This document shows positions 2,739 through 3,206 of a DNA stretch of 64,000 bases, piece after piece. A program made the position numbers and the translations under genes. Source of the DNA: Enhydrobacter aerosaccus (GTDB lineage: Bacteria > Pseudomonadota > Alphaproteobacteria > Reyranellales > Reyranellaceae). Numbering within the stretch: the stretch's first letter is position 1; each line of letters starts with the position of its first letter. Where the stretch lies: assembly GCA_903915535.1 (NCBI GenBank), contig CAIWTJ010000168.1:1-64000 (forward strand). Direction: 5' to 3'. The notes below the pieces were generated by a model. That model was not told the origin of the DNA and made no database searches. It saw only the letters and a program-made list of their open reading frames with translations.

Positions 2739-3206
2739 CTAAACGCCCATCAGCTTCTTGAGAAGCGGCGTGATGGTGCCCTGCCATCCGTCCACGCCGG
2801 TATCGGTCTCGATCAGGACATCGTTCTGGACGACATAGAAACGCGGCGACCAATATTTGAACCAGGCGTTGCGCTTGGGATTGCGCTGCGGCGTATCCCA
2901 CTTTTCCCGCTGCTCCAGGAACGAGCGCAGGACCCAGACCAGTTTCGGGTCCCAGTTGTCCCGCGGCTTCAGCCAGTTGGATTCCTCGCAGACCTGCTGC
3001 CAGCGATCCGCATAGAGGTGCCTGTAGTCAATTCGCGCAAACTGCGCCGAAGCCCGCCAGTCGTCCTCGCATTGACGACGCCACTGCAGGCAGGGTCCTC
3101 AGCTGGCGTAACTCGACATGATGACGAGAGGCTTCTGGTCGGCCACGACAGGCGTCGATACCGAGGCCGCCGCGGCTCCTGCGATGAAACTCCGCCGTAT
3201 GATCAT
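2739..3206 (-). CDS. Exported thioredoxin-like protein with an in-frame UGA at the first active-site cysteine position
   Basis: From ATG 3206 (GGGGGA ribosome binding site) the frame gives a twin-arginine-like signal (IIRRSFIAGAAAA, cleavage near VVA-DQ), then VIMSSYAS, a single TGA codon (3099-3101, codon 36), then GPCLQW and 119 clean codons to TAG at 2739. The TGA stands exactly where the first Cys of a thioredoxin CGPC motif belongs. Downstream the thioredoxin fold continues: a cis-proline strand (YWSPRFYVVQNDVLIETDTG) and a C-terminal helix (TITPLLKKLMG). Total length would be 155 residues. Two readings remain: selenocysteine (UGPC) or a recent nonsense mutation (TGC or TGT to TGA). No selA, selB or selC is in the window. 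Confidence 0.7.
3052..3091 (-). promoter_or_regulatory. Stem-loop just downstream of the in-frame UGA (possible bacterial SECIS)
   Basis: On the mRNA, bases 8-13 after the UGA (GCCUGC) pair with bases 42-47 (GCGGGC), and bases 20-25 (GUCGUC) pair with 34-39 (GACGAC), closing an 8-base loop AAUGCGAG at 26-33. Loop distance fits the range described for bacterial SECIS elements. The loop lacks a G in its first two positions, which counts against a canonical element, and GC-rich coding DNA folds easily. Confidence 0.3.

Follow-up and report, generated by a model that had tools for sequence, protein, structure and literature searches.

The question raised by this locus was how an in-frame TGA codon, located exactly at the first active-site cysteine of a thioredoxin-type redox motif, is read by the cell. 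The window (the whole stretch of DNA that was analyzed, 64 kb) carries the gene on its minus strand, and translation of the reverse complement of 2739-3206 gave MIIRRSFIAGAAAASVSTPVVADQKPLVIMSSYAS-TGA-GPCLQWRR...SPRFYVVQNDVLIETDTGVDGWQGTITPLLKKLMGV-TAG, with 119 codons open after the TGA, while the plus-strand translation of the same segment was an unrelated frame. The initial annotation had described this single frame, with TGA at codon 36, TAG at codon 156 and Gly-Pro-Cys directly after the TGA, but had omitted the strand; on the minus strand each of these points was reproduced. The ribosome binding site, rated as good in the initial annotation, amounts to no more than a G-rich GGGGGA tract 4 bases 5' of the ATG and is putative. 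In genes near this one TGA serves as an ordinary stop codon, from which it was deduced that the genetic code is not reassigned, ruling out a genome-wide reassignment of UGA. From the data presented below, codon 36 (UGA) is almost certainly selenocysteine (Sec), and the proposal as a whole, namely that the gene encodes a Sec-decoded, Tat-exported thioredoxin-fold thiol/selenol reductase, is considered very probable. The features on which this is based are collected in Table 1.

Table 1. Positions within the window of the features assigned to the proposed selenoprotein gene.
Feature	Position	Strand	Details
Proposed selenoprotein gene, UGPC thioredoxin-like protein	2739..3206	minus	155 codons + TAG; ATG 3206, TAG 2741-2739
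Signal segment MIIRRSFIAGAAAASVSTPVVADQ, twin Arg (R4 R5), predicted Tat export	3135..3206	minus	R4, R5 conservation
In-frame TGA, codon 36, almost certainly read as selenocysteine	3099..3101	minus	TGA kept in homologues; Cys/Ser in TGA-free ones
UGPC redox site, start of helix 1	3090..3101	minus	alignment and structure model
SECIS-like hairpin GCA-G-UGGC-GUC-GUCA-A-UGC	3069..3087	minus	loop GUC starts 19 nt after UGA; one G.A mismatch
Pro-Arg-Phe (P121-F123), invariant	2838..2846	minus	where thioredoxins usually have the cis-Pro loop; cis-Pro role presumed from the fold

Homologues were sought in same-genus genomes by a protein search that placed no requirement on the presence of a TGA. They were found in 60 of 61 genomes (the source genome included), and many contained exactly one internal TGA. 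Intact genus homologues with TGA at the position of codon 36 numbered 65, comprising 8 UGPC genes (the window gene included), 56 UGGC genes and a single UAAC gene. The view that a TGA on this particular Cys was not a matter of chance is therefore supported by dozens of homologues whose one internal TGA falls at the same codon. The initial annotation had also proposed that homologues be examined for Cys or U at this position, and what was observed was either the Sec-type TGA or Cys, the latter as CGFC (G001) or as CPPC, CPYC, CPTC and CGYC in others, with Ser in one clade of the TGA-free homologues. In the tree, the Ser paralogues formed one clade (100/100) within the branch containing the UGGC genes, and the window gene clustered with L010 and L180 (support 88/91) at an identity of about 46%; the deep forks of the tree are unsure because few alignment columns were available. 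For the UGGC genes, dN/dS was about 0.26 after the TGA versus 0.38 before it. Two further genes fall outside these groups. A decayed UGPC copy having URPC and an extra in-frame TGA (L098:1391-1945, G034 contig 63) was not counted among the 65, and a third paralogue in the source genome (L101:726-1181, contig 277) has the active site SPSS, which is neither Sec nor Cys.

A class-wide sample of 385 genomes contained the TGA form only in the genus itself and in one other genus of the same family. A DNA pattern that demands TGG CGT was also run over 84,980 species and returned 104 stretches, 74 of which were real members while 30 had no homology. These members included Vineibacter terrae and several metagenome-assembled genomes (MAGs), some of them labelled Bradyrhizobium, Rhizobium or Asaia. 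At least the Asaia-labelled MAG belongs to the same genus, and such labels are therefore poor evidence for spread.

The genes required for decoding were located in the source genome (G000; 5.8 Mb, 97% complete), where all four of selA, selB, selC and selD, which had been named as a check in the initial annotation, were found. The tRNA-Sec scored 71 bits and was called as tRNA-SeC with anticodon TCA by ARAGORN. It is clustered with selB and selA on contig 72, while selD is on contig 199. Of 65 genomes of the genus, which is judged from relatives to be Reyranella in the broad sense, 61 contained tRNA-Sec, as did every one of the 44 good-quality genomes. A Sec-containing formate dehydrogenase was not found in the source genome, and the FdhA-type matches were ruled out as other users of the machinery since they lack an in-frame TGA. 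This is a case of the Sec trait persisting in the apparent absence of such an enzyme from the genome examined. The formate-dehydrogenase-like genes themselves are on contigs 23 and 79 (L102 and L103), and the L103 match has one in-frame TAG.

Downstream of the TGA, a hairpin whose loop contains GU and lies about 19 nt after the UGA was present in all TGA genes. Codons +6 and +7 after the TGA were TGG CGT in every TGA gene of the protein-search set, and the Arg codon at +7 was CGT in 66 of 66 TGA genes compared with 10.9% for Arg codons elsewhere in these genes and in their paralogues; loci found by the DNA pattern alone were left out of this statistic because the pattern itself demands TGG CGT. 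The Ser paralogues mostly used CGC for the same Arg. For 18 distinct sequences, 79% of cells paired and the covariation score was 0.273; shuffles gave 0.140, and 0 of 500 reached the observed score. This count is not a probability, as the sequences are related and coding. The tested structure was derived from these sequences. The stronger argument is the register control, as the scores in slid registers were all far lower. The covariation also held when the window copy was removed.

No match to the hairpin was found among the Rfam SECIS families, and the family sequence differs from the E. coli fdhF-type SECIS, relative to which the stem of the window copy is also weaker. The fdhF element has a short apical stem and a GU loop. 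Both are shared by the family hairpin, together with a loop about 19 nt after the UGA and, in most members, a bulge beneath this stem. The published model for bacterial SECIS elements specifies a G in the first two positions of the loop, a spacing of 16-37 nt, an upper stem of at least 4 bp and an energy of at most -7.5 kcal/mol (PMC13188914), and the loop position and GU of the family fit it. As judged from these sequence features, the conserved hairpin of the TGA genes is a bacterial SECIS element. On comparative grounds, the conserved UGA coding position, the SECIS element and the retention of the Sec machinery by the genus lead to the assignment of UGA as selenocysteine. It is proposed that SelA, SelB, SelC and SelD would decode codon 36 and that the hairpin just downstream would direct this decoding.

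For the window copy, decoding is less certain than for the family because its SECIS was the weakest of those tested. Its GUC loop, spacing and 4-bp apical stem fit the published model (PMC13188914), but the hairpin alone gave -5.8 kcal/mol against the model value and was not the minimum-energy fold, while SECIS-shaped folds of relatives gave -10.6 to -19.4 kcal/mol. With a SECIS model built without the window copy, the hairpin was the best site in the 64 kb but scored 16.7 bits, compared with 56-60 bits for relatives that were included in the model. It could accordingly be argued that, within a genuine selenoprotein family, this copy has begun to decay, with a diverged SECIS and a UGA now mostly read as stop, an argument to which the scattered, orphan character of the UGPC genes, with no common neighbors, and the visibly decayed relative L098 would add. 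This was considered improbable. The frame stays open downstream of the TGA, with an identity of about 46% to the closest relatives, and all of the invariant residues after the redox site are retained (W42, R43, Q45, W78, P81, P121-F123, G137 and P147). The hairpin also keeps TGG-CGT and the apical pairs, one of them as G-U. Furthermore, the decayed L098 hairpin scored 47 bits, showing that the SECIS score does not track decay.

Selenocysteine is the preferred reading for the window copy also, though its decoding may not be efficient, and the remaining explanations were given almost no weight. A fresh pseudogene, arising from a nonsense mutation or sequencing error on the first active-site Cys, was the other half of the original either-or and would be permitted by one genome alone, where nothing but the TGA itself speaks for it; it is refuted, as is the base-call error suggested at the same time, because the TGA turns up again in dozens of species that were sequenced separately, including genes from named cultured strains and from single-contig genomes, and is opposed by the full Sec machinery and the conserved RNA element. 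The selenoprotein half of that either-or stands on the sel genes, the conserved TGA/Cys and the SECIS. Equally negligible is ordinary UGA suppression (by Trp or another amino acid) or a regulatory stop giving a short product, which could draw on the variability of bacterial SECIS elements and the weakness of the window hairpin taken alone, but is at odds with the normal use of TGA as a stop in neighboring genes, the Cys rather than Trp at this site in homologues, the full Sec machinery of the genus, the GU-loop hairpin at the published spacing and the purifying selection 3' of the TGA.

The protein is predicted to be exported. R4 and R5 were invariant in 43 of 43 aligned members and the TAT_signal model was weakly reached by 9 of the 43 (best E 0.009), in agreement with the twin-arginine-like signal noted at the outset; Tat export and a periplasmic location are accordingly likely on sequence grounds. 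The AF2 model (pLDDT 87.6, pTM 0.79, with low pLDDT at the N terminus) had a thioredoxin fold in which residue 36 is directly before helix 1 and the invariant P121 directly before a strand. All three features of the thioredoxin superfamily were thus observed: the fold, a redox motif where helix 1 begins and a Pro before the next strand. The top solved-structure match, ranked first in both structure searches, was periplasmic SoxS of Paracoccus pantotrophus (PDB 3d4t/3dml; Z 9.5, rmsd 2.5 over 93 residues). Ordinary thioredoxins followed at Z about 8, and the match is therefore taken to indicate a thioredoxin fold more than kinship to SoxS. Both proteins are small, have a thioredoxin fold with a CxxC-type site and are periplasmic, in the window protein by prediction, but they share 14% identity, and the window protein differs in its Sec at the position of the first Cys, in its twin-Arg signal segment and in a longer insert ahead of the cis-Pro region. 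No sox genes were recognized among the neighboring genes examined.

From sequence and fold, the product would be a small periplasmic thioredoxin-fold protein with UGPC at the start of helix 1, exported by Tat, that acts as a thiol/selenol reductase of oxidized periplasmic thiols, like the Cys thioredoxin SoxS. Re-reduction would be by a DsbD-type membrane protein, and one is encoded in the source genome. The redox class (UxxC reduction of thiols or selenols with DsbD-type recycling) is inferred from these data, while any particular substrate or electron donor would be a guess.

The family appears to be a previously unlisted selenoprotein family. None of the 43 members matched a Pfam or NCBIfam model at cut-off. 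In a review from 2026, 119 families or subfamilies of prokaryotic selenoproteins are listed, several of them UxxC thioredoxin-like (PMC13188914), and comparison by family model, which covered families having a Pfam or NCBIfam model, found none that fits. Listed selenoproteins include Sec-containing thioredoxins and thiol:disulfide interchange proteins (PF00085, PF13098; PMC13188914), with which the present family shares a thioredoxin fold with UxxC. It differs from them in falling below both cut-offs (PF13098 best E 0.06; PF00085 no match), in its Tat-type signal and in being confined to Reyranellaceae-like bacteria in the searches made. With the family apparently missing both from the curated libraries and from the inventory of 119, annotation pipelines can be expected to miss the gene or to report a short fragment in its place. 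By title and abstract, no relevant literature was found that connects Reyranella to selenoproteins or Sec to MsrP (subscription papers and preprints being outside the scope). The review cites a survey on groundwater MAGs (PMC13188914), and the family may have been sighted earlier, unnamed, in a MAG survey.

The genomic context differed between the two main forms. Among the 45 UGGC loci for which 2.5 kb or more of downstream sequence was available, 44 had msrP near the UGGC gene, which was nearly always immediately upstream of it and on the same strand, msrP being identified by the NF003767 equivalog at 411-420 bits. In the source genome, the UGGC gene on contig 154 is followed by an Mpo1-like gene and then by msrP. 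Examples of this gene, which codes for a periplasmic methionine-sulfoxide reductase, are L049:4586-5539 (source genome, contig 154) and L058:5488-6519. A role for the selenoprotein as a substitute for MsrQ was unsupported, as an MsrQ-like gene is present elsewhere (120.7 bits versus a cut-off of 130). For the UGPC genes, the window's included, no msrP was found within the flanking sequence examined, and no common neighbors were seen that would hint at a substrate.

Any MsrP-related role of the UGGC paralogue is a guess, e.g., electron supply or reversal of thiol over-oxidation. We tentatively hypothesize, while regarding it as rather doubtful, that exported selenothioredoxins, rather than formate dehydrogenase, are the main reason why Reyranellaceae keep the whole Sec pathway, with the UGGC form being the selenium-dependent part of periplasmic methionine-sulfoxide repair, the tandem Ser paralogue a non-catalytic partner and the UGPC protein of the window an orphan paralogue of the system. 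A family that spans the genus, has a conserved SECIS and includes a paralogue linked to msrP goes beyond what the single sequence could show, and would bring selenium into the redox biology of the periplasm in an alphaproteobacterial genus that is widespread in soil and freshwater, with one branch tied to msrP. The Ser paralogue, perhaps non-catalytic, was present in the same locus for 36 of 57 UGGC loci, most gaps being about 65 nt. It has the motif SExC, mostly follows the Sec gene and usually keeps the resolving Cys, as in L059:6234-6665 and, e.g., L030, L065 and L067.
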